From a virus: DNA of 50,686 nt. The notes below the pieces were generated by a model. The model saw only the letters and a program-made list of their open reading frames with translations, was not told the DNA's origin and did not search any database. The position numbers and the translations under genes are program-made. Positions 2,796 through 44,923 of this stretch are shown here, piece after piece; within the stretch, counting starts at the first letter, position 1; the number at the start of each line of letters is the position of its first letter. Location of the stretch: positions 1-50,686 of IMG/VR virus record IMGVR_UViG_3300042305_002495; one strand, written 5' to 3'.

Positions 2796-2797
2796 TT

Positions 2798-5511: not shown

Positions 5512-5520
5512 AGGAATTGT

Positions 5521-9107: not shown

Positions 9108-9109
9108 TT

Positions 9110-10593: not shown

Positions 10594-10595
10594 AT

Positions 10596-11378: not shown

Positions 11379-11387
11379 AGGATTAAT

Positions 11388-12308
11388 ATGAAAATACTTA
11401 TTACTGGATCAAGTGGATTTCTAGGAAAAAATTTATTGCCAAAAATTAAACAACAGTTTAATGATAGGTCAATATATGCAATTTCTAGCAAAGAGGCTGA
11501 TTTAAGAGACGCAAAAAAATGCAAAGACTTAATGATGGATGTTAATCCAGATATTGTAATACATGCAGCAGGTTCTGTTGGTGGGATTATAGCAAATAAA
11601 GAAAATCCCGGAAAGTTTATTTATGATAACCTTATAATGGGATGTAATATAATCCATTCTTCGATGGTTTTCAATGTTAAAAAATTTATATTACTTGGAA
11701 CAGTCTGTAGCTATCCAAAATTTACACAAGTGCCATTTTGTGAAAAAGATCTTTGGCTAGGTTATCCAGAAGAAACAAATGCTCCATATGGTATAGCTAA
11801 AAAGACACTGATAGAAATGTTGATAGCTTACAATAAACAATACGGATTTAATTCAACTTCTCTTTTACCGGCAAATATGTATGGGCCCCATGATCATTTT
11901 AACTTAACAACCAGTCACGTTATACCAGCATTAATTATGAAGGTAAATACTGCTATTCAAAGCGGGCAAGAATCAATTACTATTTGGGGAACTGGCCAAG
12001 TTTCAAGAGAGTTTTTATTTGTTGAAGACTGTGCCCAGGCTATAATCAATGCAGTCAACGTAGATACAGACCCACAACCAATAAATATTGGAACTGGACA
12101 AGAAACAAAAATTATAGACCTTATTGAAATGATTTGCAAAATAATGAACTATACTGGAGAAATAATTTTTGATAGTACAAAACCAGATGGTCAGCCACGA
12201 AGATGTCTTGATACAAGTCTAGCAAAAAAACAATTAAATTTTGAAGCAAAAACTTCATTAAACGATGGATTATCATCAACAATAAACTGGTTTTTAAACA
12301 AGAGGTAA
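11388..12308 (+). CDS. fcl: GDP-L-fucose synthase (GDP-4-keto-6-deoxymannose epimerase/reductase)
   Basis: 306 residues, the normal length, with AAAGGA before the ATG. It is an extended short-chain dehydrogenase. G7-S-S-G-F-L-G13 binds NADP, and G-S-V-G-G-I-I-A-N-K-E-N-P is the fucose synthase fingerprint. Y134-G-I-A-K138 is the catalytic YxxxK. T105-V-C107 stands where E. coli has S-S-C, so the catalytic cysteine is kept and Ser is replaced by Thr. S-R-E-F-L-F-V-E-D and a closing P-D-G-Q-P-R-R motif also match. It makes GDP-L-fucose for the GT11 enzyme encoded upstream. The preceding pathway enzyme (GDP-mannose 4,6-dehydratase) is not in the window. Confidence 0.92.
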   Translation: MKILITGSSGFLGKNLLPKIKQQFNDRSIYAISSKEADLRDAKKCKDLMMDVNPDIVIHAAGSVGGIIANKENPGKFIYDNLIMGCNIIHSSMVFNVKKFILLGTVCSYPKFTQVPFCEKDLWLGYPEETNAPYGIAKKTLIEMLIAYNKQYGFNSTSLLPANMYGPHDHFNLTTSHVIPALIMKVNTAIQSGQESITIWGTGQVSREFLFVEDCAQAIINAVNVDTDPQPINIGTGQETKIIDLIEMICKIMNYTGEIIFDSTKPDGQPRRCLDTSLAKKQLNFEAKTSLNDGLSSTINWFLNKR

Positions 12309-14705: not shown

Positions 14706-15074
14706 ATGAAAACTTGCAAATCTTGTAAAACTAAAAATGGCGCAAGAAGTTTTTCCTGCAAAAATTGCGGCAAAGAATTCATTGTAAAAAAGCGACCCAA
14801 AAAAGTAAAAGTAACAGACTGGAAAATCCTTGAAAAAGGACAGCAGTTTAAAGTTATTGGCGGTTCTGGACCCTATTTTATAGGCCACAATAACGAAAAA
14901 CAGTATCTTTCAGAAAAAGGTATTTATATTACTTCTTTTACTGACAATGCCGGAATCCATGCTTTTTCTAAAGAAGGCAAGTCTTATGCCTATATTTACA
15001 TGGGGCCGGAAGAAAAGAGTGAGCTATGCTATAACCTCTATAGGTCGCCCCACAAACTAATCACTCTTCAATAA
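14706..15074 (+). CDS. Zinc-ribbon protein of unknown role
   Basis: 122 residues. The first 22 hold C4-x-x-C7 and C18-x-x-C21-G, a zinc ribbon with ten residues between the pairs. A basic K-K-R-P-K-K-V-K-V linker follows. The remaining part is beta-rich (W-K-I-L-E-K-G-Q-Q-F-K-V-I-G-G-S-G-P-Y-F), like a small barrel that may bind nucleic acid. The gene starts only 7 bases after the terminator T-run, so it depends on read-through or on a promoter within the hairpin region. No strong ribosome binding site precedes the ATG. Its stop overlaps the convergent glycosyltransferase gene by 7 bases. Function not known. Confidence 0.6.
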   Translation: MKTCKSCKTKNGARSFSCKNCGKEFIVKKRPKKVKVTDWKILEKGQQFKVIGGSGPYFIGHNNEKQYLSEKGIYITSFTDNAGIHAFSKEGKSYAYIYMGPEEKSELCYNLYRSPHKLITLQ

Positions 15075-16024
15075 ACGTCAATGCTGTCTTCATTGCGGCT
15101 AGAAAAGTATTCTCGAATTTGCTGTTCTAGCTTTGGCTTGTTTTTAGAAAATTGAAAAAGACCCTGGCCATCGGCCTTAATATCAAATTCTGGATCGTAG
15201 CCATTGTCAACCAAAATCTTCCATCTATCATGGTATTTTCTATCTACTCTATTGCCATGCCAAAAGTGCATACAGAGCCCAGGAACCACGCCAACATTAT
15301 GATGGATAAAATCATCAGCTCTGGCTTGCCAAAGCTCTAATTGCTCTATATAGCCCTTAGAAAGCTTCGCATATAGCCCCTGCTTAACATTGCCGGTTAA
15401 AGCCCTAGCCATATGTAAGTCCGCAGAACCTAATATTGCCATATCCAAAAGACCGCCCAGAGCATCAATCGCTTCTCTAGTAAAGGCAAAACCAAATCCC
15501 GGATGTGGTAATTTAAAATAAGGCCCAGCCTTTAAGTCATAGCCTTCTAAAAATGCTTTAAAAAAAGATATTCTTTTATTCCCAACAACCTCAAAAGATG
15601 GACTTAGATTTACAGATTCTGAAAAAAGCTGTACAACAGAATAGTGCTGTAAACGATGGATTGTTTCTTCAACCCAATCGTCTCTAGAAAATTGAACATC
15701 GGCATCGCACCACGCGACATATTTCCAATCGTGTGGCAATCTATTTATTGCTAAATTTATTGCACGCTCTTTATGCCATAATTCAGATTTTGTTCTTAAT
15801 AAAATATGATTATTATTTAATTCTTGTGACTTGAAGGGAAAATATGATTCGCCATCTTTTTCATATAAAGTTTCAAAATCTCTATCTTTTAGGGCGACTT
15901 CAATAGTTACTAATTCACAATTAAATTTTCGCATATACTCCCTGAATTGGAAGTAAAGCTTTTTCCTCGAATTATAACGCCATGGATTAAAATATGGCGT
16001 TATAACATATAATGTATTATTCAT
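15068..16024 (-). CDS. Glycosyltransferase family 2-like protein at the end of the virion operon
   Basis: 318 residues. It has the GT-A plan: L-Y-V-I-T-P-Y-F-N-P at the start, K-Y-V-A-W-C-D-A-D-V with D107-x-D109 as the metal motif, then W-V-E-E-T-I. G-F-G-F-A-F-T-R-E-A follows, then G-S-A-D-L-H-M-A and a late H-F-W-H-G-N-R. The last pattern (H-x-W-H-G) is typical of galactosyltransferase-like C-terminal domains. It lies 12 bases after the 233-residue virion protein gene, with GTAAGG before the ATG, so it is the last gene of the structural transcript rather than part of the left cassette. It may decorate a virion protein. Confidence 0.75.
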   Translation of the reverse strand: MNNTLYVITPYFNPWRYNSRKKLYFQFREYMRKFNCELVTIEVALKDRDFETLYEKDGESYFPFKSQELNNNHILLRTKSELWHKERAINLAINRLPHDWKYVAWCDADVQFSRDDWVEETIHRLQHYSVVQLFSESVNLSPSFEVVGNKRISFFKAFLEGYDLKAGPYFKLPHPGFGFAFTREAIDALGGLLDMAILGSADLHMARALTGNVKQGLYAKLSKGYIEQLELWQARADDFIHHNVGVVPGLCMHFWHGNRVDRKYHDRWKILVDNGYDPEFDIKADGQGLFQFSKNKPKLEQQIREYFSSRNEDSIDVY

Positions 16025-27780: not shown

Positions 27781-28050
27781 TTATTTTCCCCTAATCCTTA
27801 AATTTAACGGAAGTTCAGTTTTACCAATGCCGCTCATTGTTATATTTAAAGCATTGTTTAAAAATACTCCGCTAACTCCATTAGTAATTAAACTAAGTGA
27901 TTGATTTCCGCTTCCGCTAGAGGTTTCAGCATATAAATTCATATTATTATACACAAAGGATGAACTTGGGCCTGTAACAAATAAATTTATATTTCCAGAA
28001 GTTGATAATGGTTTACCATCAGTAAATAAAGATAAAGAATTATTTTCTTC
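27781..28050 (-). repeat. C-terminal LxLF/LxL short-repeat array in the giant tail protein
   Basis: About 90 residues with copies such as N-N-S-L-S-L-F-T-D-G, G-N-I-N-L-F-V-T-G-P, N-N-M-N-L-Y-A, N-Q-S-L-S-L-I-T-N-G and L-P-L-N-L-R-I-R-G. Each copy is a short strand followed by a Gly/Asn/Ser turn, about 18-25 residues apart. It ends the protein. Confidence 0.7.
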
Positions 28051-31000
28051 TTCGCCGCGAACAATATCGCCAATAGCAGAAATTATATATGGACGATGAG
28101 AAATTAAACCCCTGGAAGAAGAGTCATAACCAGAAACTTCTATAAAAATATCGCCATTCTCATTAGAGAATAAAAGTCCGCTAGCAACATATTCAACTTG
28201 CGAACCAGTTATATTTTGCATAATTTCTAAATTAATACTAGAATCTTTATGGCCAAAAATATTTGCCTTTAACCAACTTCCAGAACCTGGAATAATATCA
28301 TCTTGACCTCTAAGCATTATATCATAAGTATAAACTGCTCCAGCGTTATTTAATGTTGAAGTAATATGATTTCCGCTTGTAGCATATTTATGATTTGGAG
28401 AACCGGCAACAACTGTATAATCAGCATCATCTCTTCTTGATCTATCAATAGATACGCACTTGCCAAAATTATCATTAATATTTCTAGCGTTATATCCTTG
28501 AGAATTAATTTTTTCTACATATGACCAAGTTTTACTTCTATTTTGCCAATCAGTAAGTTTATTATTATAAATAAATACTGCTCCATTGTTTGGCGTAAAA
28601 ACACCGCTTTCATCATTAAATTGATTTACACGAGTTTCATATGATCCAAGATCATATTTTACACGCTGAGGAATGTCGAAAGATAAATTAAATTCTTTTC
28701 TTATAAAACTACCGCTATTATAAATATTATCATAAATTGTTTCATAATCATGCCCTGGAGCACCAATAGCTATTAAATCAGCATCAAGCGAAACAGCAAA
28801 ACCAAACATGTCAGTTACTATCCCGCTGGAACTTTCATTATCGCTTCCTATGTTTATGCTAGATGGACGTATTTTTTGTTTGAATTCCCATGGTAATCTT
28901 GAAGAAATAGCGTTTTTGCCTTTTCCTGTTCTTTCATAATAAAAAACGGCTCCAGCTCCACCGTTTTCACTAAGAATAGGAGAACCAGAACTATTGTTAT
29001 AAGCTTCAAACCAAGTCCAGTTTCCAATATTTTCGCTAGCATATATATTATACGGAGACCCAACAATTAGTTTATTATTATGTATGTCTAGGGAATAACC
29101 AAATAAATCTCCTGGATACCCAGAAATTATAGTTACATCTAAATAATCTTTTCCTGTTGTTGTTAATAAGGATGGAATCCCACCACCAATTCCAGCGTCA
29201 ACATGTAAATTACCATCTATTATTCCGCTAAACCTTGGATATAATCCGGCTGTATTTATACTACTATTTATAAAATCTTCAATTGCTTGATTATATTCTT
29301 CTTCAGTTAATGGATTAGCTGGTCTTGTAACAGTAGATGGATCGTAAAGATTTTCATTGCAAATTAAGTTTGAGCCGCCGCCTAAAATTCCTCCAAATTT
29401 TTGAACACTAATATCACTATTTGTAAAGTAAGATACTTTTTCAGGGCTACTACGCTCAGAGCCTGGAGCAACTATTTTTTGAACAAAGCTAAATTGTCTA
29501 GTTAAACTTCCGCTACTGTTTATAAGAAATTCATTTAATTCTTCAATATTTTCTTCCGGGCTTGGTGGATAAAGACCTCTAATAAAATCGTGATTTGCAC
29601 TATCAGTATTTCTAATATGAGGATTTTGGCCCTGAATCATGGTTGAATCTGCAAGAAGAACAATTCTTGATCTCTGATACCCAGCCACAAAGCTAGAGAA
29701 ATTTTCAAATTCTTCTGCGGCAATAACTGGACCGTCTTCAATTAATTGTCCAGGGCATTTGTCTATGTGGTCTAAACAATATTTGGCACTATCAGACTTA
29801 AATGCTCTAAATTGAATTGGTGAATTAAATATGTATTCTGGGGTATACCAAGGGGTTTCAACAATGTCATATCCATTACATTTTATTTCAGTATAGGATT
29901 GATCAGAATAAACTGAGGAAGAATTAATTGGAAGCAGGCATCCAGAAACAGATAATATCTTAGGTGTCTTTAAGGCAGATTCTGCATGATTAATCCAACC
30001 AGAATGACTTACAAAGAAATTAACAGATATTGACGTTGTATCATTTGGAACTTGAAATTCTAATGTGCCTAATTTATTTGTTTTAAATTCGGTAATCCCT
30101 AATGATGCATATACAGTGGAGGTTTCATTTTCAAAATCTGGATCTGCAATTACATTATCTATATAAACATTTAACGGAAAACTTTCAGTGTTATCATCCG
30201 ATCTATAATTAATAAATATTTTATACCCAGAGCCAGGCATAACATCAAAATCAACTTTACCCTGAGCATTTATATCCCACAGAGGATTATTAACAGGATA
30301 CTCTTCTTGTACTTTTTGAGTATAATAAATTATTTTTTCAGCAGATTGCCCAGCTTTTAACGGTATTAATTTGAAATTATCAGCATTTGGTATATAAATT
30401 TCAGATACTTTTGTAGATTTATTAATATTTGCAAAAACATATCCGTTTTCACATCCAACAATAGACGGATGAGAAGTAGATAATAATTGATTATAAATTT
30501 CAGTATTTAATGTTTGGTGTAAATATTTACCTTCTGCCAAAGAGTATAATGGGCGACTTTCAATATTAAGTTGTTCGCAAATATAGTTAACATTATTGGC
30601 TATAGTTTGATCGTTATCATATACAATAATTAATTTTTTATTACCAATATTTAACCAGCTCTTTAGTTCATTAACTTCATTTATATTTGGTTTATTTAAT
30701 GGGCTCCAAATCCAAACAACGTCTGTATAAGCATCTATTGTGGGTTTACTTATAAGATATTGTTTATATGAATTAAATATATAAGGAAGTTGAGAATTTT
30801 CTATAAAGCCAGTTCTTCCAGTCCAGCCAGTAAGCTGAACAATATTAGAAGAATTATTACAATCTTTTATAACTAAGTTTATATAAAATGGAATATTTTC
30901 ATCAGAATTTGTTATGGAAAATTGTTTCTCTAATTCACACGAAGCAATTAAAATAACGTTTGAGTCACCAAGCGGTTCATCTAAAGCAATGATAGTCTCA

Positions 31001-34000
31001 TCATAAAAATCCCTAAGACCAAATACTGCTGGGCCCTCTATAGATTTTCCAATCGCCTGTATTAATCCTGAACCTTCTGGATTTATAAAATCACCACGAT
31101 CAAAAGATTTAAATAAGCCACTAGCTAGATATGTTTGTTCATCTTCAAGTAATGAAAACTCTATATCATTAATATGATTTTGATCAAATGTTTTGCTAGT
31201 TATAAATTGACCAGCAGGAACTGTTACAGATACGCACCTTGGAATATATTCTATATTTACGCCACTAGCTTCTGGAATTACAATTGTTTCTTGAAACCAT
31301 TCAGCGGCAGCCAAAATTGGTCTAGGATCTTGATTTTCCTTATTAATGTAAGGATACGGATTTTCTGGATAATTATCACAGTCCTTAGCTGGATTATCAT
31401 TAGCAAAGTGGAATGGCCAGTTCTCTTTATATCTTATAGTTTGAGAAACATTTCCAATTGTTCTTACACAAGAAGCATTCCATTCTGCCCTTAGGTCACC
31501 AAAATGTTTCAGCGGCAAAACGCAATTTGGATTTTCTATTCCGCCAAACTCATCTTCTTCTGTACAGCTTGGATATAAATAAAGATTTGATAAATTAAGA
31601 TTACTTAGATCTATCTTAATATCAGCAACACCGCTTGCAAACATATTCAAAGAAGGAATATATGTACTATGAGCATAAGCTGGAACAAATGGTTTTGTTA
31701 CATTATACAAACCACTTATTACATCTGTCTCACTTGCTCCATTTATAAGAGCCCTTTCTTTGTCGTCAACAGGAACAAGCTTCATTCTTGAATTTAATTT
31801 AGTCAATATTTTATTAATAATATTATTAGATTTTTGATATTTACCATTTTCTTCCCAAACTGGGTCGTTGCCAACTAGAACAAGCGTTCTATCTCCCAGC
31901 TCAAGCCAACTCTTAATATTATCTATAATCTCATCGCTAGCAGCATCAATTTCTGGAGTAATAATAAAGGCTAAACCAGCGTTTTTTGGAATTTCTAACT
32001 CAGAGAATTTTAATCTTCTAAATGGAACATTTACTAAAGAAAAAACACCTTCCATTTCATCATAATGACCAGACGCAACAATAGATGGGTGTGAATTTCT
32101 ATCAATATTTCCAAATCTGGTATATTCAACAGCAAGGTTATGTGGATAATATTTTCTTGCTTCAAAAATTCTAACTGCACCAGCATTATTGTAAGAAGCC
32201 CAAGTGTCTTCACCTTCACCCCAAACGTTAGTATCATCAAATTCATTAAATGAATCTGTTGGCGCACCAAACGCTACATAATTTCCATCGTCGCTAACCG
32301 CAGAGCTATAACCAAGTCTAGATGTTCCAGCAAATATTGATGGTAAAAATTGGTATGTTCCAGTATATGGAATGTTACTATAGGTAAAATCATATATCTT
32401 TTGATATAAATTAATTAACCCGCCCCTGTCTTTCCAAAAATCATTGTCTGTTCTTAGCCAGAATTTATAAGATTGAGATAAATTATTATAAGCATCTTGA
32501 GATGCTATTAACTTACCAGATACAGAAAGCAAGTTATCATATCTTGATATGTCTCCAACGCTTCTATAAGACATCCAATCTTTTATACTATCTAACATTC
32601 TAGTATTCTGAGACTCGTCTCGCTCATATATTTGACATGGCTCAATCGAATATGGAGATCCAATTGCTAAAACTTCTCCATTTTCACTAATTGAAACAGA
32701 ATGTCCAAACCTATCATTTGGGCGACTTCCATAATCAGCATAATTATTTTCATCAATTATAGAATCATTTGGAGATTTAATTTCCTGAACCAAATTAAAA
32801 GAGTTGTTTTCTTTTTCAAAAATATAAACCCTACCACCAGACGGAGGAAGAATTTGAAACTCATATGCAGATTCATTAGCCCATTCTTGACCAACCCCGC
32901 TAGTTATAAACTCTAAGGCATTATTAGTAATAAGATTACCAGTAGATAAAGTTTTATCTAAAATACTTATAGAGGCAAAATCCCAGAACTCTGATAAACC
33001 ATCTTCAATATTTATATATCCGCTAGAAGGTAAATTAGTTTTTAAGTTAATAACGCCGCTTTCATAAGCATAATTTTTATAAAAAGATATAAATTCATTT
33101 AGAGCAGAATTATATGCCGAACCATTACCGCCGGTTGACCAGCTATTATCTCTAAAAATACCAACTATTGGCGGAATATTATTATGTAATTTATTTTGAT
33201 TAAATGGAAATGCTTCAAAAAACATCTGTTTAAAACCACTAACCATGCTATTCTTAATATAAGAAGAGCCATTTAAATTTTCTAAAATAGAATCATCTAG
33301 TCTTTCAATATATTTATGCTTAAACCAATCTGAAGAAGACGTAATTAACGGTCTTTCAGAATTATTAAATATCAATTGATATACCAAAATATGAATATCT
33401 AATACCGGCTGAACATTTCCAGGAAGCGGCGCTGAAAAATATTTGTACAATGTATCCCATTTTCTTGCTGTATTAGCAATACTAGCTAGCATTTTTTCAT
33501 TATATTCAAATTTATCAGTTACAACCATCATGCAAATAGGAATACCAGAAGTAACTATTGACTCAAATGATTTATTCCAACTTGCACCAGGGGCGCCAAC
33601 CACAACAATTTCTTTTGCTCCGCTGTATGCTATATCTACAGAAGAACCGAATTCTCTTCCGACTTGACCAACGTTCCACATTTGACCAGAAATGCAAAAT
33701 TCCGGAAAAGCAGAATTTGGATAACAAAATAAGCTGTCTATAACTTTTGTTACATATTCTTTTTTGTAACCAGAAGGTAAAGATAATCTATCACATAGAT
33801 TCCATTTAGCTTTTTGACCAGCAATATCTTGTTCTCTTCTATATAAGAAAACAGATCCAGCATTTAATATTGGGTAACCAGAATCATCAGGAATATCAAT
33901 ATAAGGTACACCAACAGCCATTAAATCATTTTTTACACAAACAGAAGAACCGTATCTATCATTCGCGTTTCTTCCAGATGGAGGGTTTAAACTTAATTGC

Positions 34001-37000
34001 CCACTTAAATATGGATAATCTCCAATTAATTTAGCTCCAGAATAATTTATAATTGAATTTGAGCCGTATTCAACTTCTTCTATTTCTCTTGGGGATACAA
34101 TCGGAGTTGTTTGTCCAGTGATTCCCTTGAAAAGAACCCTATAAGCAGAGTTTGGTATTAGTCCAGAGAATTTTCTAATTCCATAATAATTTGAGTCATA
34201 TCCAGCTTCTAAATTAGTATAAACTTCAGAGGCTCTAAAAATGCCAGCATCATTACAAACTTCTGAAAGCCATTCTGTATCATGAGTAATAACAGTCCTA
34301 TCTATTGCTTTTCTTGGGCTATCACTACTACAAGAACCATAAGACATTAAATCGACACCTCTAATTTCGTCATTAAGAGGTATACTAGCAATTAAATTAT
34401 CTTCAAAATCAATATCATAACCATAATTTTCATTAAACCACCTTAAATAAACTTCGCCACCGCTTGTTAGATTGTTAGCGGCAAACATATTCAAAGAACC
34501 AGTTGTTGCCGTGACAGAAGTATCGCCATATAAAGTAAGATTTAATTGTTGTTTGATAAGATTATTATAAACAAGAAGATTGATAGAATTACTTGGGTAT
34601 CTGTTGTCAAGAACAGCGCTGCCTATTGCAGATAAATTTAAAACGCCGCTATTAGCGTTTGAATCAATTTCAATATCATTTAATACAAACAATGGAATGT
34701 TGTTTTGTATTCCAAGAACATCTCCGCTATTTGCAAATAAAGATAAATTTAAAAAATCGTTTCCAGGTATATTGTATGGAGAATCAATATTGTATGTTGA
34801 TAAAGAAAGCCCATAATAGTCGCCACTTCTAGATGTTGCGACACCATGAGCAAAAGCAAAAAGATTTACAGAAGAATAAGTATATTCACCAGACCCATCT
34901 ACAAACAAAGAAAGGCCAGAATTTGAAACTTGAGATGGGCCAATAGTAAATAGACTTAAAGATTGACCAGAAGCAAAATTCCAAGAATCCATAAATAGTA
35001 TTAGGCCAGATTCTTTAATTTGAATCGGACCAGTAGCAAATAAATTCATTGATCCACTTGAGCTTGGTGGATAGTTTTCTAAAATTAAATTTAATTTCTC
35101 TTGAAGTACATAGCCCCCATTTGAAAACAGATTTAGTTGATCGTTTGTATTTACACCCTCAACATAAGCATCTTCAAGCCTAATGTGGGCGCTATGAAGA
35201 TTTAGTCTAGATGTAAAAGGAGACCCAGACGGATAAACAATATCATATTGCAAAAACATATCATCAATATCTTGAGAATAATACTTTTCAGTAAGTTCTG
35301 TAAGTCTTGTTTCAGAAGGAAATAATGCCCACTGTTCAGTATCGTCTATTAAACTGTTATAATTAAATGTGCTATCAAGTCTCATAATACAACTTGATGG
35401 CTCAAGATAATGTATTGCCCTGTTTATAAGACCCCAGTTCTTTTCATCCGGAATCCAATACGGTTCTTTTTTCTTTGTATAAAGACTTACAATTAGTTTT
35501 GGGCCAATGTTTCCATCTTGCCAAACTAAATTGCCACTAGACTTATGATCAATAACACTTTCTACAACCAACGCCCTGTCGGCAAACTTATAACCTCGTG
35601 GTAGGTCTTTTGTAATTCTTCTAAAAGTAGAGTAAAAACTATCTGGAGTATCAGTTAGATTAAATCTTAAAAAATCATTTTCTATTTGAGAATGATAAGC
35701 TACATTTGGGTTTAATGAACTAGGAATTGAAATATTTGTTCTTTGTAAATACCCAGAGCCATCATGAACCATATTGAAAGAAATTAAATCTCTTCCAGTA
35801 CGTTTTGTTAATTGCTGGAAAGCAGAATCAAATTGACAATATTTAAAGTCACCAATGGCCCAATCTGTTAATGTGTCTTCGTTAACATAATCCCACAATT
35901 TATAATTATCGTTACTATAAGACTGGCTTGGATTCCACCACATCATTCTGTGGTTATCTAAAAATTTCTGAGCCGTTACTTCTTTATAAGTTAGGTCTGG
36001 ATCAGAATATACAATGTTTCCTTTATCCGAAACGCCAATTTCAGACACAAACATATTCATACCAATACCAGAGCCACTAGAGTAACCAACAACTAAATTA
36101 CTTGTGTCGCTATAAAGCTCAAAAGGAACAATAGAGCTTGCTCTTAAAGTTTGCCAGGAGGGCGAAGATTCATTATCTGTATATAATTTTAATCCACTAG
36201 AATTATGATCATTATAAGTAAATATAATAGATAATGGGTATTGATAAGAACTATAATGGGCGGTATCTTGAACTGAAATTATATTCCCAGCAGAATTTCT
36301 AGCTAAACCCCTTAAAAACCCACCCGAATAAGCAATTGCGAATTCAAGAGGCTTGCCAGAATCCCACTTAGAAACTAGACACCCACTTTGAAATAAATTA
36401 TAATTAACACCAGAAACATTTGCGTCTGGAGAGAATCTCAAAAATATACTAAACCCATCACTAAAATCAACATTATTAAAATTAATGTAAGAGTTATTCC
36501 CTGATATTCTTACAACATTATTAAACGCATCAGATATTTTCCCATAAAGCTCATGAGATTGAAAATTAACAAGACCACTATTTAAGGATGTCCAATCTGT
36601 TGTTCTGTATGATCCACTATACCCAGGCAATTGCTGAGAAAAGATTCCAGAACTATTAAATCTCCAACCTAAGTTTTTATATTTATAATCTTGATAAGAT
36701 GTTGTAATATATCCAGATAGCGAGCCCACTCTTGGTACAACGGTTTTACCGACATCGTAATCAAAATCATAATAACCAGATAAAAACGGAAAATCTAAAA
36801 GAGGATTATTAAAACCGAAGTCAAACATATCAGGATCAAAATCGCCCTGAACCGTTCCTTCCATACCCCTCCATCGTCTCGAATAATTAGACTTAATAGT
36901 CGTCGGAGAATCGAAACCGTGTGGAATATTTTCTATCTTTGATATTGGGGCATAACCAGAACCGGCATTTATAATGCTGTCAGTACTGCCCATAGAAGAT

Positions 37001-39123
37001 GGGAAAATTTTACCTTCAGATCTATACTGAGGAATTTTACCTATATGTTCACCGCCTTCAACTATTAAATTTATAGCATTTTGAGGGGCATACCTTACTA
37101 ATAAATGCATGGCCCCTATAGACGCACCGCTTGGAATTGGAAATATATCTAAATATAGATGCTCAAACATTGGCGAAAGAGCATAATTTCTAGATTTTCC
37201 TAAAACGACATTATCTTCATAAATTTTTAAAGGTATTTCATACCACTTGAATTCTGTGGAATTAACCACAGGGGTTTGCGATAAAAGATAATGGTCTCCA
37301 CCGGCATTATTAGTCAAATTATTTTCAAAATATTGATCTTTTTCAGAAAGTGAGTTTGTACTAATACCTAAATCGTTAATTGCTAAAAAGCCAGAAGTTT
37401 CTGGTATCTCCCCGTCGCCAGAAATATTTTGTAAAAATCCGCCAATGTCACTTGTAACATTTAATATTTTATCATCACTATAACCAACAACGTCTAAGGA
37501 AAAATCTCTAGACCCAATAGCTTTTTTAGCATAAACTTTAAGTGAAACAGATTCAATAGTAAAATAATGATCGGTAGAATCAAAAGGTGTTTTATTAAGT
37601 GTGTTAAACGCGCCACTTGGCTCAACCCACATATTACAAACAGATTGATCAAAAGCACATCCAAATGCGCCGCCGGTAATTTCCGACATTTGACCAACTG
37701 GCTCATGGCCAAATTTTACAAAAAGCTTTCCAGAATCCTGTAGGGATGTTTCATTTAAAGAAATGTAATTGGTTGGATAGGTTTGACGTAAAACACTGAG
37801 TAAGTTTTTAGAACCGTCTTTTGTTCGGTTAGAAATATTTATATCATTATTTGCTATCCATATGCTGCTAACTAAAGGATAAATACCGTTATTTTTATTA
37901 AATAACGGAAATTCTATTGGATAAATTGTTCTTTCAATTCTTTTCCCGGTTGGTTCAACTTCTAAATAGGTAGATATATAATTTTCTACTCTTGGTCCAA
38001 ACCCACCGCTATTACAAATTTCAATAGCTGATATTTTTAAACCCTTTGTAGGATTAAATACATTTTGATTAATTGTAGAGGCTGGTGATCCATCAATCGC
38101 AAGATAATCATTACCGCTATAAGAGACTAATTTTAATTTAAAATCTTCTTCAAAACCAAAATTGAAACCGCTATCAAATGCATCATCAAGAGACTTTACA
38201 TCTACCGAGAATGATAATGTGTAACCAGAAGGCTCATGCATGAGCGGGTAACCATTTTCCCACTCCCATTCATATTGAGATATTTTATTTATCTTTGGCA
38301 GAAGCGAATATGTTACATAATTTAAATATGTTGGATCATATTGATTTGCGTCACCACGAATTTTTACTCCTTCATATTCAATAATAAGATTACCAAAAGG
38401 ATCTTCAAATTTTATATCTCTAAGAGTATATTCTGGAGGAATTCTAGATTCATAATTAGACAACGGGGCCGATAAACGTATTCTTAAATTAGAATATGAA
38501 GGTTTTACAATCGGTTTTGTTACTTCGCATTTATAATTAAAAGATCCTTCTGTGTGTATAGAAGATGGGGTAATATATGTTTCTTTATCATCTGACAGCA
38601 ATACACTATTATTGTTAAAGTTTTTATTATAATCTCCAGTAAATACGCCCTCATCTATAAACGAATATAAGTTTTCAGTCTGATTGGCTGGACCAACAAA
38701 TATGCCAGAACCATTGCTGCTAATATCTGCTATTGGATAAAGTTTTTGCAAACATTCAAAATTTTCAAAAATACCAGCAAATTTATCAGCATATGTAACG
38801 ACGCCATTACTGTCTGTAATTAATTTTTCTCTCAGGTTATAATTAGCTGTTAAATTTTCTAAAATTGTTGGCTCAGAAGAAACTGTAGATCTTAAACAAA
38901 GTTCTAAATTTAATTTAGCAGAAATATTTGCGCTGAACGAAATATCAGCCGAGCCTTCTTTCAGCCTGACAATTGGGGCAGTTATTGTAGAAGAAGCAAC
39001 AATGTTCGTTTTTAATACGGCTGGAACGCAATTTATTTTTGGTTGAGTAAAATTGCCAGATCCAGTAACATTTGCATTTACCGGTTTAATGCATAAGCAT
39101 TGTAATGAATCTAAAAATCCCAC
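27781..39123 (-). CDS. Giant mosaic tail protein: LamG-like, LxLF repeats, split FG-GAP propeller
   Basis: 3780 residues from a GTG start, with GGAG nine bases before it and the previous stop seven bases upstream of it. Domains in order: N-terminal beta region; LamG/concanavalin-like domain at about 865-1035; LxLF repeats at about 1325-1545; FG-GAP_2-type repeats starting near 1721, 1822, 2136 and 2269. Two similar alpha/beta units follow, near 2380-2420 and 2797-2838. Then come Ig-like regions, three more FG-GAP repeats near 3338, 3437 and 3550, and a second LxLF block from about 3690 to the end. The repeats carry F-G-x-S-V and V-G-A/S-P motifs. Such domains usually bind sugars or proteins, so a tail fibre or host-contact role is inferred. 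Confidence 0.75.
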   Translation of the reverse strand: MGFLDSLQCLCIKPVNANVTGSGNFTQPKINCVPAVLKTNIVASSTITAPIVRLKEGSADISFSANISAKLNLELCLRSTVSSEPTILENLTANYNLREKLITDSNGVVTYADKFAGIFENFECLQKLYPIADISSNGSGIFVGPANQTENLYSFIDEGVFTGDYNKNFNNNSVLLSDDKETYITPSSIHTEGSFNYKCEVTKPIVKPSYSNLRIRLSAPLSNYESRIPPEYTLRDIKFEDPFGNLIIEYEGVKIRGDANQYDPTYLNYVTYSLLPKINKISQYEWEWENGYPLMHEPSGYTLSFSVDVKSLDDAFDSGFNFGFEEDFKLKLVSYSGNDYLAIDGSPASTINQNVFNPTKGLKISAIEICNSGGFGPRVENYISTYLEVEPTGKRIERTIYPIEFPLFNKNNGIYPLVSSIWIANNDINISNRTKDGSKNLLSVLRQTYPTNYISLNETSLQDSGKLFVKFGHEPVGQMSEITGGAFGCAFDQSVCNMWVEPSGAFNTLNKTPFDSTDHYFTIESVSLKVYAKKAIGSRDFSLDVVGYSDDKILNVTSDIGGFLQNISGDGEIPETSGFLAINDLGISTNSLSEKDQYFENNLTNNAGGDHYLLSQTPVVNSTEFKWYEIPLKIYEDNVVLGKSRNYALSPMFEHLYLDIFPIPSGASIGAMHLLVRYAPQNAINLIVEGGEHIGKIPQYRSEGKIFPSSMGSTDSIINAGSGYAPISKIENIPHGFDSPTTIKSNYSRRWRGMEGTVQGDFDPDMFDFGFNNPLLDFPFLSGYYDFDYDVGKTVVPRVGSLSGYITTSYQDYKYKNLGWRFNSSGIFSQQLPGYSGSYRTTDWTSLNSGLVNFQSHELYGKISDAFNNVVRISGNNSYINFNNVDFSDGFSIFLRFSPDANVSGVNYNLFQSGCLVSKWDSGKPLEFAIAYSGGFLRGLARNSAGNIISVQDTAHYSSYQYPLSIIFTYNDHNSSGLKLYTDNESSPSWQTLRASSIVPFELYSDTSNLVVGYSSGSGIGMNMFVSEIGVSDKGNIVYSDPDLTYKEVTAQKFLDNHRMMWWNPSQSYSNDNYKLWDYVNEDTLTDWAIGDFKYCQFDSAFQQLTKRTGRDLISFNMVHDGSGYLQRTNISIPSSLNPNVAYHSQIENDFLRFNLTDTPDSFYSTFRRITKDLPRGYKFADRALVVESVIDHKSSGNLVWQDGNIGPKLIVSLYTKKKEPYWIPDEKNWGLINRAIHYLEPSSCIMRLDSTFNYNSLIDDTEQWALFPSETRLTELTEKYYSQDIDDMFLQYDIVYPSGSPFTSRLNLHSAHIRLEDAYVEGVNTNDQLNLFSNGGYVLQEKLNLILENYPPSSSGSMNLFATGPIQIKESGLILFMDSWNFASGQSLSLFTIGPSQVSNSGLSLFVDGSGEYTYSSVNLFAFAHGVATSRSGDYYGLSLSTYNIDSPYNIPGNDFLNLSLFANSGDVLGIQNNIPLFVLNDIEIDSNANSGVLNLSAIGSAVLDNRYPSNSINLLVYNNLIKQQLNLTLYGDTSVTATTGSLNMFAANNLTSGGEVYLRWFNENYGYDIDFEDNLIASIPLNDEIRGVDLMSYGSCSSDSPRKAIDRTVITHDTEWLSEVCNDAGIFRASEVYTNLEAGYDSNYYGIRKFSGLIPNSAYRVLFKGITGQTTPIVSPREIEEVEYGSNSIINYSGAKLIGDYPYLSGQLSLNPPSGRNANDRYGSSVCVKNDLMAVGVPYIDIPDDSGYPILNAGSVFLYRREQDIAGQKAKWNLCDRLSLPSGYKKEYVTKVIDSLFCYPNSAFPEFCISGQMWNVGQVGREFGSSVDIAYSGAKEIVVVGAPGASWNKSFESIVTSGIPICMMVVTDKFEYNEKMLASIANTARKWDTLYKYFSAPLPGNVQPVLDIHILVYQLIFNNSERPLITSSSDWFKHKYIERLDDSILENLNGSSYIKNSMVSGFKQMFFEAFPFNQNKLHNNIPPIVGIFRDNSWSTGGNGSAYNSALNEFISFYKNYAYESGVINLKTNLPSSGYINIEDGLSEFWDFASISILDKTLSTGNLITNNALEFITSGVGQEWANESAYEFQILPPSGGRVYIFEKENNSFNLVQEIKSPNDSIIDENNYADYGSRPNDRFGHSVSISENGEVLAIGSPYSIEPCQIYERDESQNTRMLDSIKDWMSYRSVGDISRYDNLLSVSGKLIASQDAYNNLSQSYKFWLRTDNDFWKDRGGLINLYQKIYDFTYSNIPYTGTYQFLPSIFAGTSRLGYSSAVSDDGNYVAFGAPTDSFNEFDDTNVWGEGEDTWASYNNAGAVRIFEARKYYPHNLAVEYTRFGNIDRNSHPSIVASGHYDEMEGVFSLVNVPFRRLKFSELEIPKNAGLAFIITPEIDAASDEIIDNIKSWLELGDRTLVLVGNDPVWEENGKYQKSNNIINKILTKLNSRMKLVPVDDKERALINGASETDVISGLYNVTKPFVPAYAHSTYIPSLNMFASGVADIKIDLSNLNLSNLYLYPSCTEEDEFGGIENPNCVLPLKHFGDLRAEWNASCVRTIGNVSQTIRYKENWPFHFANDNPAKDCDNYPENPYPYINKENQDPRPILAAAEWFQETIVIPEASGVNIEYIPRCVSVTVPAGQFITSKTFDQNHINDIEFSLLEDEQTYLASGLFKSFDRGDFINPEGSGLIQAIGKSIEGPAVFGLRDFYDETIIALDEPLGDSNVILIASCELEKQFSITNSDENIPFYINLVIKDCNNSSNIVQLTGWTGRTGFIENSQLPYIFNSYKQYLISKPTIDAYTDVVWIWSPLNKPNINEVNELKSWLNIGNKKLIIVYDNDQTIANNVNYICEQLNIESRPLYSLAEGKYLHQTLNTEIYNQLLSTSHPSIVGCENGYVFANINKSTKVSEIYIPNADNFKLIPLKAGQSAEKIIYYTQKVQEEYPVNNPLWDINAQGKVDFDVMPGSGYKIFINYRSDDNTESFPLNVYIDNVIADPDFENETSTVYASLGITEFKTNKLGTLEFQVPNDTTSISVNFFVSHSGWINHAESALKTPKILSVSGCLLPINSSSVYSDQSYTEIKCNGYDIVETPWYTPEYIFNSPIQFRAFKSDSAKYCLDHIDKCPGQLIEDGPVIAAEEFENFSSFVAGYQRSRIVLLADSTMIQGQNPHIRNTDSANHDFIRGLYPPSPEENIEELNEFLINSSGSLTRQFSFVQKIVAPGSERSSPEKVSYFTNSDISVQKFGGILGGGSNLICNENLYDPSTVTRPANPLTEEEYNQAIEDFINSSINTAGLYPRFSGIIDGNLHVDAGIGGGIPSLLTTTGKDYLDVTIISGYPGDLFGYSLDIHNNKLIVGSPYNIYASENIGNWTWFEAYNNSSGSPILSENGGAGAVFYYERTGKGKNAISSRLPWEFKQKIRPSSINIGSDNESSSGIVTDMFGFAVSLDADLIAIGAPGHDYETIYDNIYNSGSFIRKEFNLSFDIPQRVKYDLGSYETRVNQFNDESGVFTPNNGAVFIYNNKLTDWQNRSKTWSYVEKINSQGYNARNINDNFGKCVSIDRSRRDDADYTVVAGSPNHKYATSGNHITSTLNNAGAVYTYDIMLRGQDDIIPGSGSWLKANIFGHKDSSINLEIMQNITGSQVEYVASGLLFSNENGDIFIEVSGYDSSSRGLISHRPYIISAIGDIVRGEEENNSLSLFTDGKPLSTSGNINLFVTGPSSSFVYNNMNLYAETSSGSGNQSLSLITNGVSGVFLNNALNITMSGIGKTELPLNLRIRGK
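27946..27957 (-). promoter_or_regulatory. Possible internal promoter motif within the giant gene
   Basis: Read on the minus strand, TTTGTGTATAAT matches 12 bases of the motif shared by the tube and 233-residue genes. It lies in coding sequence (F-V-Y-N), 165 bases before the start of the 572-residue gene. It could boost the downstream genes, or it may be chance within AT-rich codons. Confidence 0.3.
34450..35160 (-). repeat. Central LxLF/LxL short-repeat array in the giant tail protein
   Basis: About 220 residues with roughly ten copies of a strand-turn unit: Q-L-N-L-F-S-N-G-G, S-M-N-L-F-A-T-G-P, S-L-S-L-F-T-I-G-P, G-L-S-L-F-V-D-G, S-V-N-L-F-A-F and L-N-L-S-L-F-A-N-S-G, then L-N-L-T-L-Y-G-D and S-L-N-M-F-A-A. 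The DNA copies have diverged, so this is an old protein repeat rather than a recent DNA duplication. Confidence 0.75.
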
Positions 39124-39124
39124 T

Positions 39125-42100
39125 TTATACTACTCCAGTTTCTAGTACAAGCCTTCCGCCTTCTCCAACTTTATATTTTCCAATCATATCACTAAAAGCT
39201 TTTTTAACCGCGCCTTGAATTTGATCAGAATTTGCATTAGAGCTTGCAACATTTATAGCCACATTCGCATCAATGTTAACGTTTGACGGAACTGTGCTAG
39301 ATACTGTGGCTCCTGTGGCGGGAGTAGATCCAGCAGAACTACTACTAGAGCCACTAGAACTTCCTCCCTTAGATCCGCTAGTAGCGGTATTCGAAGCGGG
39401 GTTATTCGGAGCGGCTGATGTTTGTCCAGACGAAGAAGATCCAGAAGAAGCGTCTGAAGCATCTCTAATGCTTTTTTCCCATTGAATTTGCGTAGCCCTA
39501 ATAACAACATTATTTGCTTCAATATTCATTCTTTGTATATCTGCTAAGTTTTGTGTCACTTCACGAAGAGTTTCTGCAAGAGCCATGCCCTCAGTTTTAA
39601 TCGCTTCCATTTCAGGGGTAGTTCCAGCATAAACCTTAGCCATACTTCCAGCTCCAGCAAATCCTCCTAGAGCTGTTCTTGTAGCCCTTTCCATCTCTTT
39701 ATCTGATAAGCCTTGTCCCTGAAGGCTCTTTAGTCCAGCGCTAAGAGCTGTTGGTCCAAATAATTTTGCTAATTGTGTATCGCCGCTCCTAATTGCAGAA
39801 GCAGCAGCAGAAGCAGATTGCTCTTCAATATAGCCCTGAACATCTCCAGACAATAGTTTGTCTATAGCAGATCTTTCTAATTCATTTTTCTTTTGAGCTA
39901 AAGCAAGTTCTTCTTTCTTTTGAGAAATCAGATCTCTAGTTGATTGAAGAATACTTTCTTGTGCTTTTATAGATTTATCTCTTAAATCATTTTCGATTCC
40001 AGACGCGCCGGTAAATACTGTTTGACCACCAGTAGCAACTTGCCTATTCACAGCAGCTTGTTGTCTAGAAAAAATAGAACTAGCTTGAGAAGATGCCGCT
40101 AATAAACCTGAAGCAGAAGGTGTTGCTAATCCACCAACCCCGGCGGCTCTTAAGTCTAAATTAAGCTTGCCTAAAGTAGCAGAAGATCTTTGCGCCGATT
40201 TAACTTTTGGTCCGCCAAATTCTTCTATAATGGAAGCTGCCTCTAGCTGAGCGTCAATAACTTGTTTTTGTGCATCAATATATTTTGCTTCTAATTCTAG
40301 TCTTTTTTGAGTAAGTGTCGCTATTCGTTTATTATATTCAAGATTTTTCTCAAGAGAATTAATAGCAGCATTACCAAATGTCTTAAATGAATTAGTAATA
40401 TTTTCTATAATACCACTAACATCTTGTGTAGCTGTTCCTTCTAGTTTTGATATTTCTGCTTGAGCAACTTTTCTTATATCTTGATTACTGCCAGCTAAAC
40501 CAGTAATTATTTGAGTTAATTGTTCTTTAGCAGTTTCAGGAATAGCAGATAAATTGGCTGTCTCAAGGGCTGGCCCAAGTTTAGATGTAAAATCTGTTAT
40601 TTGTGTTAAATTATTAAATGATCGATCTAATGCTCCAGCTAGTGGAGAGCCAGCAGGAACGGTTCCCATAACCTGCGTTCTAGCTTGCTGAATAGCAAGC
40701 CTTCCTTGTTCGCCCATTCCAATATTTTCTTGAGCAGCTTTTATCGTGTTTATAAATCCTTCAAGCGGGTCATAGCCTGTTTCTAAACCAGCAGCAAAGT
40801 TTTGTAAAGCAACAGATGCGGCATTAAAAGCAGAATTTACTTTTAAGTTATCAAAATTTACTTTAATCAATGCTTGCTGTGCGGCTTTTAAATCAATAGC
40901 GGTTTTTCTAAGTTTAGCAAATTCTTCACTTGTAAGACCACCGCTTTTTTGCAATTGATCTAAAGCCGCATTCATTTCTTGCTCAGAAGATGTTCTTGCA
41001 ACTATCGCATTAATAGCTTCAACTTCTCGCTGCTTTAATTCGGAAAGAACCTTTTCTCTTTCTTCTTCAGATATTCCTTTTGATCTAGATTTTTCTATTA
41101 AAGATGCTGAATTTTTTGTAAATTCTTTAGCAAAAGTGGTTGCGTTTGTTGGAGAAGCGCCTGTGGTAAAACCTTTTAAAGCCTTAGCTTGACTCGCAGC
41201 AGTAATTGTTGAAGCAGCTTCTAATTTTTGTTTATTTCTTTCTTCTTCTGATGATCTTCCAGTAAAAAACCCTATACCACCACCAATTGCTGCGCCAGCA
41301 AGGGCTCCTAATGGACCAAGCATAGCGCCAGCAAGAGCGCCAGTTGTTGCACCGGTTAATACCGAGGAAATTTGTCTTCTACTAGAAGCCGTATCAATAG
41401 CAGCTTCAGCACCACGAATATCACCGGCCTCAACGCTTTTCTTAATATCATTTTCTGCTAATCTTACATAATAATCAGAAATCTGTTGACCAACAGATAA
41501 TGCACCAGCTAATAAAATTTGAAAATTTGCTCCTAAATTTTTTGCAAGACTACCAATAGCCGTGGTCGCTTTTCCTATTCCAGTAACAAGAGAGCTAACA
41601 CCCTTTGTTGCAAATTGAGTAGCTGCCGATGTAACTGTTCCAATACCTTTGGTCATAGCCGAAATATATTTATTTAATTTATTTATAGGATTTGATAGTT
41701 CCTTAAGAGATGCGCTAAGTTCAGGTCTTCTTTTTTCAAATTTTTTATCTGATATCAAAGAGGCTTTTTTATTAGAGTCTTCTACACTTTGCGATAATGG
41801 ACTAAGAGATTTAACTTTGTTTTGTTTTTGCAGTTTTTGTCTTTCTGACAGTTCCTTAAGAGCTGCACTAAGTGCAGGTCTTGTTTTTTCAAATTTTTCA
41901 TCTGGCGACATGAAAGAAGGCTTTTTATTAAAGTTCACCACGCTTTGCGCTAATGGACTAAGAGATTTAACTTCTTTTTGCGTTTGTGGTTTTTGTAATT
42001 CTGATAACTCCTTAGCAAGTCCAGGTCTTGTTTTTTCAAATTCTTTATCTGATATAGAAACTATAGGAGAAGATGTTTTTTTGCTAATAGGAGTATTTTT

Positions 42101-44923
42101 TGAACTGAAATTTGCCGTATTAGGAGTTTCAGATTTAGCAATATCAATTACTTCTATTTGCTCGTTTTTTTCAGCTCTTCTTTGATTGGCAAGATCTGTA
42201 ACAACTTTCATAGCCATAATACTACCAATTACAGCTATTAAAGAATTATTCATTTCTGCAATCGTTTTACCGGTTTCAGTTGATGTGTCGGCAAAACTTG
42301 ATAAAGAACTAGTTACTGCGCCAATGGCTAGAGCAGCACCAACCCCGCCGAGAGCGGGTCTAGATCCAGTTGGCTGATTTACTCCGGTTGGACCAGCTCC
42401 CGTTGCATATTTTTTAACAAACCCTCCTGTTGCAAATTTAGAAACCCCCTTTCTATTCATTGCACTAAGATTGCCATAACCAATTCTCTGGGCAGAAGAG
42501 CGGTTAATAACAAATTCGCCGGGGGTTAATAGGGCAGGAACTGTATCAGTTCCAACATTTCCACCAGAAGCAAATTTTTTAATTGTTACCCCGTCAGTAA
42601 TTCCTTTTTTTAAATCTGCTACTAATTTATCTCCTATGTCTTTATAATTTTCTGGACTACCAGTACGTTTAGCGTCTGCTTTTACTAGTTTAGAAATTTC
42701 GCCAGAACTTCTAAAAATAGAATTCAATCTTCCTTTAACTGTTTGATTTAATGAAGTAGAAGGGTAATCAAAAGTAGTTTTTCCTCCAGCTAAAGCCGCC
42801 CCACTTAAAGCAGAAACAATTCCTTCAAACATATATCCTTCTATTGTAGATTGAGCCCCGCCTTCTTTAAATAAATTAGAAATAGATTTTTCAAAAATTT
42901 TCTCATTTCCATCTATTGGCGGAATATCTATTGCTCCACTAGATCTAATAGCATTAGATGCTGATACAATAGATTTTTTTAATCCTTCTTTTGTTTGATC
43001 TGAAACAATTTTTCCTATATTGCCGCCAGATATATCATTTTTGCCAGTATAAAAACCACTAACAGGCCCCTGTAATTCATATAAACCTTTTGGAAATCCA
43101 GCTAATTTATCCAAAGACACAGATCTTTTTATTTTATAATCTCTTTCTGTTCCTTTATTTGGCCTTAAAAAAAATCCGCCTATTGCTGATGGATTTATAC
43201 TTATTGATCCAACAAATCCTTTTTTCTTTTGTGAAGCCTGTTCTTCAGCTTTAGTATTTGGAATAATTTTTCGCTTTTTATAATAATCTATTGTTTGAGT
43301 TCCATTAGCAATTTTTCGTGCTTGATTTTCACTTAATGTGGGAAATTGTTTTTGTATATCTTGCCAAGGTGTTCGAGGGCCATATAAAGATTTATTGCTT
43401 GAAACAATTCCTCCAGCGGCATATCTATTCTCATTCATCGCCGCCAATCTGTCGGCACCAATTTTATTAACACTGCTTTTACGAACAACAAATTCGCCGG
43501 GTGAAAGCATAGCTGGAACAGTGTCTCTATTGCCCGTACCAGGAACTAACCCGCCACTAGCAAAAGCATGTATTTTTCCACCGGCATTTCTTCTAGCTAA
43601 ACCAGCTCCTATGCCAGAGGCAAAACTTCCAATACCTTGAGCAAATTTAATGGTGGCTAAAGCACCAAGTAATGGGATTATTGGTTTTAAAGCATCTGCT
43701 AATCTAATTAATCCAGAAGCTAAAGTTAATATTGTTTTAGTTAATACTTGAAAACTTGTTGTTTCTGTCAATCCTCTGACTAAAGATAAAAATTCTTCAC
43801 GAACCTTAGTAAACTGTACTGCTAATGCTTGTTGAGCAGTAATTGCATCTTTTGTTAATGATTCACCGCCAGCAACGGCAGCTTGTCTAGCTTTTTCGGC
43901 AATTTCAAATTGTTGCAAAAGTGGAATAACTTTACCAATTTGACGAAAACCGCCAAGCTCTTCAGCTACTTGAATAAATTTTAAACTACCTTGAGGTAAA
44001 TCACCAAGAGCTTTGCTTAATTGCTCAACAGCCTTGTAAGGCCCAACAAACTTACCTTCTGAATCAATTAATTCAATTCCAAGTTCTCTAAGATATTGAA
44101 TGGTTGCCGGTCTTTGAATACGGGTAAAAATTGTACGAAGACCAGTAGCAATTGTTTCCGCAGATTCACGAGTAGTAGCTCGGACAGATGTAAAAAGAGC
44201 AATAAGCTCTTCTAAAGAACCGCCAGAAGCTTTAAAAACACCCCCGGTTCTACGAATAACAGCAATTAAGTCTTCTGATTCAACTGCAAATTTAGCAGAA
44301 ACCGTATTTATAGCACCAAGTTGTCTTTCTAGTGCGGCAGCGCCTTCTCCAAATTGAGCTATAATAGCAACGGCGCCCTCGGCGGTTTCTGATATATCAC
44401 CGAATGTAGCGCTCAAAGAAGTTTTAGTAAGAGCCTCAAGAGCTATTTTTGTATCAGTTGCAGAAAGACCGGCCTGAGCTAAAATTAAAGCTGTGCTAGC
44501 AATTTGAGAAGATGCCACCCCCCAAGTTTTCGCAAGCCTATCAATTTCTCCAGTTAATTTAGAAAGCCCGCTAATGCTTTCTCCAGTAACTTGAGATAAT
44601 TTTATAACTTGACTATTAAATTCAATCGCCTCGTCAATAGCTCCAGAAAGTTTACTAGTAAAAAGACCAATGGCTCTACTGGCAAGAGAAAATGTAGCAA
44701 ACCTTTTTAAAGAAACTCCAAAAGCGCTGCCAAGATTTTCAACAGATGTAGTTGCTTGACGAGTCGCTTTGTTGATACTATTAATAGTAGATATAGCATT
44801 TGTGCCGTTAATATTTACAACAGCGGTCAACCCATTTAACTGGCTTTGAATATTCTTAACAACGCTGCTAACGTTATTTGGGGCCTGTAATTGTAATTGA
44901 GCCGTTATCGAAAACTTCGACAT
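39125..44923 (-). CDS. Tail tape measure protein
   Basis: 1932 residues; it sets tail length and chaperones DNA ejection. The first 350 residues hold the classic tape measure core: A-T-F-G-D-I-S-E-T-A-E-G-A-V-A-I, then R-T-G-G-V-F-K-A-S-G-G-S-L-E-E-L, then T-R-E-S-A-E-T-I-A-T-G-L. Two copies of a D-T-V-P-A-x-L-x-P-G-E-F-V motif lie near residues 470-495 and 795-825. A triplicated segment spans about 956-1078. A glycine-zipper hydrophobic stretch at about 1185-1218 may enter the host membrane. Coiled coils and a Ser/Gly/Thr linker (about 1825-1885) end the protein. AGGGT precedes the ATG, and the chaperone-like genes lie just upstream, as is usual. Confidence 0.93.
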   Translation of the reverse strand: MSKFSITAQLQLQAPNNVSSVVKNIQSQLNGLTAVVNINGTNAISTINSINKATRQATTSVENLGSAFGVSLKRFATFSLASRAIGLFTSKLSGAIDEAIEFNSQVIKLSQVTGESISGLSKLTGEIDRLAKTWGVASSQIASTALILAQAGLSATDTKIALEALTKTSLSATFGDISETAEGAVAIIAQFGEGAAALERQLGAINTVSAKFAVESEDLIAVIRRTGGVFKASGGSLEELIALFTSVRATTRESAETIATGLRTIFTRIQRPATIQYLRELGIELIDSEGKFVGPYKAVEQLSKALGDLPQGSLKFIQVAEELGGFRQIGKVIPLLQQFEIAEKARQAAVAGGESLTKDAITAQQALAVQFTKVREEFLSLVRGLTETTSFQVLTKTILTLASGLIRLADALKPIIPLLGALATIKFAQGIGSFASGIGAGLARRNAGGKIHAFASGGLVPGTGNRDTVPAMLSPGEFVVRKSSVNKIGADRLAAMNENRYAAGGIVSSNKSLYGPRTPWQDIQKQFPTLSENQARKIANGTQTIDYYKKRKIIPNTKAEEQASQKKKGFVGSISINPSAIGGFFLRPNKGTERDYKIKRSVSLDKLAGFPKGLYELQGPVSGFYTGKNDISGGNIGKIVSDQTKEGLKKSIVSASNAIRSSGAIDIPPIDGNEKIFEKSISNLFKEGGAQSTIEGYMFEGIVSALSGAALAGGKTTFDYPSTSLNQTVKGRLNSIFRSSGEISKLVKADAKRTGSPENYKDIGDKLVADLKKGITDGVTIKKFASGGNVGTDTVPALLTPGEFVINRSSAQRIGYGNLSAMNRKGVSKFATGGFVKKYATGAGPTGVNQPTGSRPALGGVGAALAIGAVTSSLSSFADTSTETGKTIAEMNNSLIAVIGSIMAMKVVTDLANQRRAEKNEQIEVIDIAKSETPNTANFSSKNTPISKKTSSPIVSISDKEFEKTRPGLAKELSELQKPQTQKEVKSLSPLAQSVVNFNKKPSFMSPDEKFEKTRPALSAALKELSERQKLQKQNKVKSLSPLSQSVEDSNKKASLISDKKFEKRRPELSASLKELSNPINKLNKYISAMTKGIGTVTSAATQFATKGVSSLVTGIGKATTAIGSLAKNLGANFQILLAGALSVGQQISDYYVRLAENDIKKSVEAGDIRGAEAAIDTASSRRQISSVLTGATTGALAGAMLGPLGALAGAAIGGGIGFFTGRSSEEERNKQKLEAASTITAASQAKALKGFTTGASPTNATTFAKEFTKNSASLIEKSRSKGISEEEREKVLSELKQREVEAINAIVARTSSEQEMNAALDQLQKSGGLTSEEFAKLRKTAIDLKAAQQALIKVNFDNLKVNSAFNAASVALQNFAAGLETGYDPLEGFINTIKAAQENIGMGEQGRLAIQQARTQVMGTVPAGSPLAGALDRSFNNLTQITDFTSKLGPALETANLSAIPETAKEQLTQIITGLAGSNQDIRKVAQAEISKLEGTATQDVSGIIENITNSFKTFGNAAINSLEKNLEYNKRIATLTQKRLELEAKYIDAQKQVIDAQLEAASIIEEFGGPKVKSAQRSSATLGKLNLDLRAAGVGGLATPSASGLLAASSQASSIFSRQQAAVNRQVATGGQTVFTGASGIENDLRDKSIKAQESILQSTRDLISQKKEELALAQKKNELERSAIDKLLSGDVQGYIEEQSASAAASAIRSGDTQLAKLFGPTALSAGLKSLQGQGLSDKEMERATRTALGGFAGAGSMAKVYAGTTPEMEAIKTEGMALAETLREVTQNLADIQRMNIEANNVVIRATQIQWEKSIRDASDASSGSSSSGQTSAAPNNPASNTATSGSKGGSSSGSSSSSAGSTPATGATVSSTVPSNVNIDANVAINVASSNANSDQIQGAVKKAFSDMIGKYKVGEGGRLVLETGVV
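41689..42057 (-). repeat. Three tandem copies of a ~50-residue segment in the tape measure protein
   Basis: F-E-K-T-R-P-G-L, F-E-K-T-R-P-A-L and F-E-K-R-R-P-E-L begin at residues 962, 1011 and 1062, giving spacings of 49 and 51 residues. Each is followed by (S/K)-E-L and, in the first two copies, by V-K-S-L-S-P-L-(A/S)-Q-S-V. The third copy is cut short after E-L-S-N. The copies are similar at DNA level too, so the duplication is fairly recent. Confidence 0.85.

Follow-up and report, generated by a model that had tools for sequence, protein, structure and literature searches.

An unclassified, probably Rossmann-like domain within an FG-GAP repeat of a metagenomic phage tail protein

Does a phage tail protein carry an integrin-like arrangement, with a metal-binding von Willebrand A (VWA) domain set into an FG-GAP propeller? 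The question is raised by a virus record of 50,686 bases (the window). A sequence-only reading had noted the string I-V-G-I-F-R-D-N-S-W-S, containing D1992-x-S1994-x-S1996 and followed by a helix, in some 300 residues placed between FG-GAP repeats 2 and 3, and had likened it to the VWA metal site of integrin alpha chains. Integrins carry their alphaI domain between blades 2 and 3 (PMC3192720), and VWA domains combine DxSxS with noncontiguous Thr and Asp residues (PMC9210963).

The motif is encoded by a very long gene in which FG-GAP_2 was the sole family matched in a Pfam scan of the 3780-residue product. A tape-measure gene lies directly upstream (39125–44923, PhageMin_Tail, PF10145, E 4.9e-24). 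The position of its gene after the tape measure makes the 3780-residue protein a probable component of the tail tip or hub. No contractile sheath was found in the records of 13 relatives, which may be fragments. Elsewhere in the window, glycosyltransferase and nucleotide-sugar epimerase genes occupy 695–12308 on the plus strand, and another glycosyltransferase-like gene lies at 15068–16024 on the minus strand.

Relatives were gathered stepwise in IMG/VR, from one locus (L001) to 8 more, then to about 45 and finally to 78 loci. They were collected through conserved peptides that included the flanks of the insert described below, so that proteins lacking the insert could escape. The insert-bearing gene was also found in three bacterial MAG contigs (L056, L057 and L058) labelled SAR202 and Verrucomicrobiales; these are probably phage contigs binned with bacteria, and their labels are a possible hint of the host. 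No cultured relative was found in the phage collection searched, where Sinorhizobium phage Phosso gave just a weak match to the FG-GAP part. The family belongs to tailed phages located only in metagenomic records. In four relatives (L003, L004, L007 and L008) the open tail frame reaches about 1000–1300 residues beyond its upstream limit in the window; this extension does not match the tape measure of the window and looks partly LamG-like by eye.

Seven FG-GAP repeats were recognized by eye, starting at about residues 1723, 1824, 2138, 2270, 3340, 3439 and 3552, each with the pattern FGxSV, VxVGAP, a loop, GxVYIF and a fourth strand; Pfam unaided detects four FG-GAP stretches of the seven. Together the repeats span about 1900 residues. 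Seven is also the number of blades in integrin-type propellers. The gene and its repeats map as follows.

27781–39123, minus strand: tail protein gene, 3780 residues, GTG start (FG-GAP_2, PF14312, E 6.7e-18)
33826–33978, minus strand: FG-GAP repeat 1, residues 1716–1766 (sequence; FG-GAP_2)
33583–33663, minus strand: FG-GAP repeat 2, strands 1–2, residues 1821–1847
32773–32838, minus strand: FG-GAP repeat 2, strands 3–4, residues 2096–2117, beginning GGRVYIFEKENNSFNLVQEI
32644–32718, minus strand: FG-GAP repeat 3, strands 1–2, residues 2136–2160
32158–32322, minus strand: FG-GAP repeat 4, residues 2268–2322
28936–29112, minus strand: FG-GAP repeat 5, residues 3338–3396
28564–28815, minus strand: FG-GAP repeat 6, residues 3437–3520
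28312–28476, minus strand: FG-GAP repeat 7, residues 3550–3604

In the cage motif of such propellers strand 1 bears the FG, the GAP proline follows strand 2, and strand 3 contributes a glycine 2–15 residues past the proline (PMC3192720). All seven repeats show the FG...P...G pattern, with some loop spacings longer than the integrin range. The sevenfold FG...GAP...G cage is shared with bacterial integrin-type FG-GAP propellers (PMC3192720; PF14312), whereas the phage version is part of a 3780-residue tail protein, has its repeat 2 interrupted by 248 residues and its repeats 4 and 5 set about 1000 residues apart.

The break in repeat 2 defines the insert. The repeat runs through REFGSSVDIA..EIVVVGAPG to residue 1847 and resumes with GGRVYIFEKENNSFNLVQEI at residue 2096, so the intervening segment sits between the GAP strand 2 and the GRVYIF strand 3, and about 250 residues separate the cage proline P1845 from the cage glycine G2096 inside the blade. 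The insert therefore counts about 248 residues rather than 300, and it interrupts repeat 2 in its strand 2–3 loop instead of joining repeats 2 and 3. The insertion point is within repeat 2 in the relatives too. The insert and its two conserved sites are placed as follows.

32839–33582, minus strand: inserted alpha/beta domain, residues 1848–2095, in the strand 2–3 loop of FG-GAP repeat 2 (AF2)
33514–33516, minus strand: D1870 (V-T-D-K-F), at the end of insert strand 1, Asp or Asn in 42/42 aligned relatives
33136–33150, minus strand: D1992-N-S1994-W-S1996, at the end of insert strand 4, conserved as [DE]x[ST]xS

AF2, run with 42 sequences, predicted the insert as one alpha/beta domain (pLDDT 85.5, pTM 0.83) with a strand at 1858–1869, a helix at 1876–1896, strands at 1904–1918 and 1934–1940, helices within 1945–1971, a strand at 1986–1992, a helix at 2002–2022, a strand at 2036–2042 and helices within 2047–2066, after which the propeller strand follows. 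The order is thus b-a-b-b-a-b-a-b-a. The domain of relative L049, modelled without flanks, gave the same order of elements (pLDDT 89.1, pTM 0.88). Searches of Pfam, PHROG and the PDB found no relative of the inserted domain.

The insert was present in 77/77 relatives checked, none of which lacked it, and its divergence is close to the protein-wide average. This combination marks it as an integral part of the protein and not as a swapped host-range cassette; such a rate would suit a structural element no less than a receptor-binding one.

The string IVGIFRDNSWS is indeed encoded in the window, with the DxSxS on bases 33150–33136 of the minus strand and a helix downstream (NSALNEFISFYKNYAY; predicted helix 2002–2022), as the sequence-only reading had it. 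Taken alone the string is unremarkable, about 2.8 DxSxS being expected by chance in this S/D-rich protein of 3780 residues and 2 being seen; its significance comes from conservation. The pattern [DE]x[ST]xS was found in 42/42 aligned relatives with an invariant final Ser, and in 56/57 relatives after dereplication at 80%. Within the insert this is the only such site, the pattern appearing at no other insert position in more than 10 rows. On this alignment evidence the DxSxS is a constrained, functional-looking site and not a chance string. Residue 1870 is Asp or Asn in 55/57 non-redundant relatives. E1992 was paired with D1870 only (11/11) and N1870 with D1992 only (7/7), an exclusion that would be expected of a charge-sharing site, though it is confounded by ancestry. 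About a quarter of the relatives have Glu for Asp at 1992, an exchange that is unusual for a strict MIDAS, and about a quarter of members carry Thr in place of the middle Ser. An SGNH/GDSL hydrolase, suggested by the resemblance of FxDxS to GDS, was considered separately and rejected on account of this Thr and because neither Pfam nor the listed Foldseek rows gave a match.

The element order bears on a first explanation, that the insert is a genuine VWA domain that has diverged strongly. Strand b1 would be IPICMMVVTD and strand b4 PIVGIFRD, D1870 would take the part of the first motif Asp, and the DxSxS would stand at the place of motif III, so that a loop-swapped MIDAS-like site would result. 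The order b1-a1-b2-b3-a2/3-b4-a4-b5-a5 is that of VWA domains, and the D1870–D1992 distance of 122 residues (113–161 in relatives) is near the 91–111 residues that separate the motif I and III Asp residues in 31 real VWAs. Structural searches point partly the same way: when the insert model was compared with BFVD by Foldseek, the best row was a VWFA protein (E 1.6e-3, TM 0.21), VWA-annotated proteins and an ITIH-family protein recurred at ranks 1, 3, 6, 7, 13, 18 and 37 of the top 50, and the weak PDB rows included integrin alphaE, the alpha1 I domain, ITIH1 and PitA.

Against this, neither the window model nor the L049 model had a PDB match at E <= 1e-3, and TM stayed at or below 0.39. The domain-only L049 model ranked flavodoxin, HDAC and glycosyltransferase folds above VWA; its best row was flavodoxin 5lji (E 2.8e-3), yet with TM <= 0.34, so that no fold family can be assigned from it, flavodoxin-like and other Rossmannoid folds included. 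The alpha/beta model is confident and its element order similar to that of VWA domains, and Foldseek returned no significant match for it. VWA loci were fetched by Pfam family and 32 were used; hhalign aligned the insert with these VWA domains over about 11 columns around the motif only, at a probability of 1–1.5%, whereas two halves of the VWA set aligned with each other at 99.8%. VWA Pfam models matched 0/41 members at E <= 10, and hmmsearch against PDB sequences gave no evidence of VWA homology. Finally, the first strand ends in D1870 with no SxS behind it. Like VWA (PF00092), the insert is an alpha/beta domain with a similar order of the first five strands and a DxSxS string; it differs in the location of the motif, in the lack of downstream motifs II and III in register and in the lack of a profile match. 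Since several defining features fail, we do not class it as a VWA domain, and a diverged true VWA appears unlikely.

Even less room is left for the integrin arrangement as originally proposed, in which a VWA domain begins at the DxSxS and lies between blades 2 and 3. The motif does follow a hydrophobic strand and precede a helix, in a propeller of seven FG-GAP repeats. However, the DxSxS stands behind the fourth strand of the insert, and only 104 residues separate D1992 from the resumed propeller. In real VWAs motif III comes 91–111 residues after the first Asp with much of the fold still to come, and the Pfam-matched part, counted from that Asp, has a median length of about 160 residues; 104 residues are therefore too few. 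The Thr and Asp expected to complete a metal site were not found in register downstream of the DxSxS. A circularly permuted profile of the insert showed no hhalign relationship to VWA either, and the insertion is inside repeat 2. We regard this arrangement as very improbable.

What survives of the integrin comparison is the general architecture. The phage protein resembles an integrin alpha chain in its seven FG-GAP repeats, in the separate alpha/beta domain that interrupts them near blade 2 and in the DxSxS of that insert. The loop differs, alphaI being inserted between blades 2 and 3 and the phage domain in the strand 2–3 loop inside repeat 2. Loops of either type project from the upper propeller face in integrins, and the phage insert would accordingly resemble alphaI in its face and not in its loop. 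The DxSxS of alphaI is on strand 1 and that of the phage insert on strand 4, with no sequence match or significant fold match between the two. The literature search turned up no paper that describes phage tails with FG-GAP or VWA domains.

The main rival to a binding pocket is an explanation in which the insert lacks a ligand site and serves as a structural spacer or an interface for tail assembly, the DxSxS being a conserved helix cap and the G, P and F residues carrying the fold. The most conserved positions of the insert are structural (P1984, G2023, F2089, G2078 and Y1895), every relative has the insert, its divergence is average, and the DxSxS, which precedes a helix, could cap it. On the other hand, an acid-x-hydroxyl-x-Ser pattern in 56/57 relatives, together with D/N1870 at the end of a second strand, would exceed what a helix cap needs. 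A purely structural role is possible, though we think it the less likely one.

Our preferred reading, put forward with middling confidence, is that of an unclassified Rossmann-like domain with a putative ligand or cation pocket, carried by the presumed seven-repeat FG-GAP propeller of a tail-tip or hub-region protein. The domain would grow from the strand 2–3 loop of blade 2. The VWA sheet has the order 3-2-1-4-5-6, and in doubly wound alpha/beta folds the crevice at the strand ends is the usual binding site. If strands 1 and 4 of the insert lie side by side, as they do in the sheets of VWA and flavodoxin-type folds, the conserved polar residues right after them would share a common ligand crevice, and D1870 and [DE]1992-x-[ST]1994-x-S1996 would most likely form the lining of a single pocket at the sheet's carboxyl edge. 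This pocket may bind a ligand or a cation, possibly a metal. From the upper face of the propeller the domain could, by analogy with integrin alphaI, reach a molecule on the host surface or an adjacent protein of the tail. At most, it would function like a MIDAS domain. A stronger version, in which a phage-specific adhesion domain with a loop-swapped MIDAS-like metal site (strand 1 bearing the Asp and strand 4 the DxSxS) sits on an integrin-like propeller as an independent or very ancient counterpart of alphaI in the tail tip, seems to us distinctly unlikely.

These results define a widespread yet unnamed alpha/beta domain in metagenomic phage tails. Phage FG-GAP propellers bear loop-inserted domains, as integrins do, with no evidence of an integrin-type VWA. 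Should the pocket bind metal or glycan, it would be a pointer to how these uncultured phages attach to their hosts.

Two further parts of the protein deserve mention. About 1000 residues (2331–3330, window 29134–32133) separate repeats 4 and 5; they include Rossmann-looking segments (GLAFIITPEIDAASDEIIDNIKSWLELGDRTLVLVGNDP; KSWLNIGNKKLIIVYD; SRIVLLADSTMIQG), and Pfam gave no match in the two segments scanned from this stretch. NLF-x-x-GP repeats, resembling fibre repeats, occur ahead of the propeller (34444–35136) and at the carboxyl end (27784–28056), the former stretch being the least conserved part of the protein.
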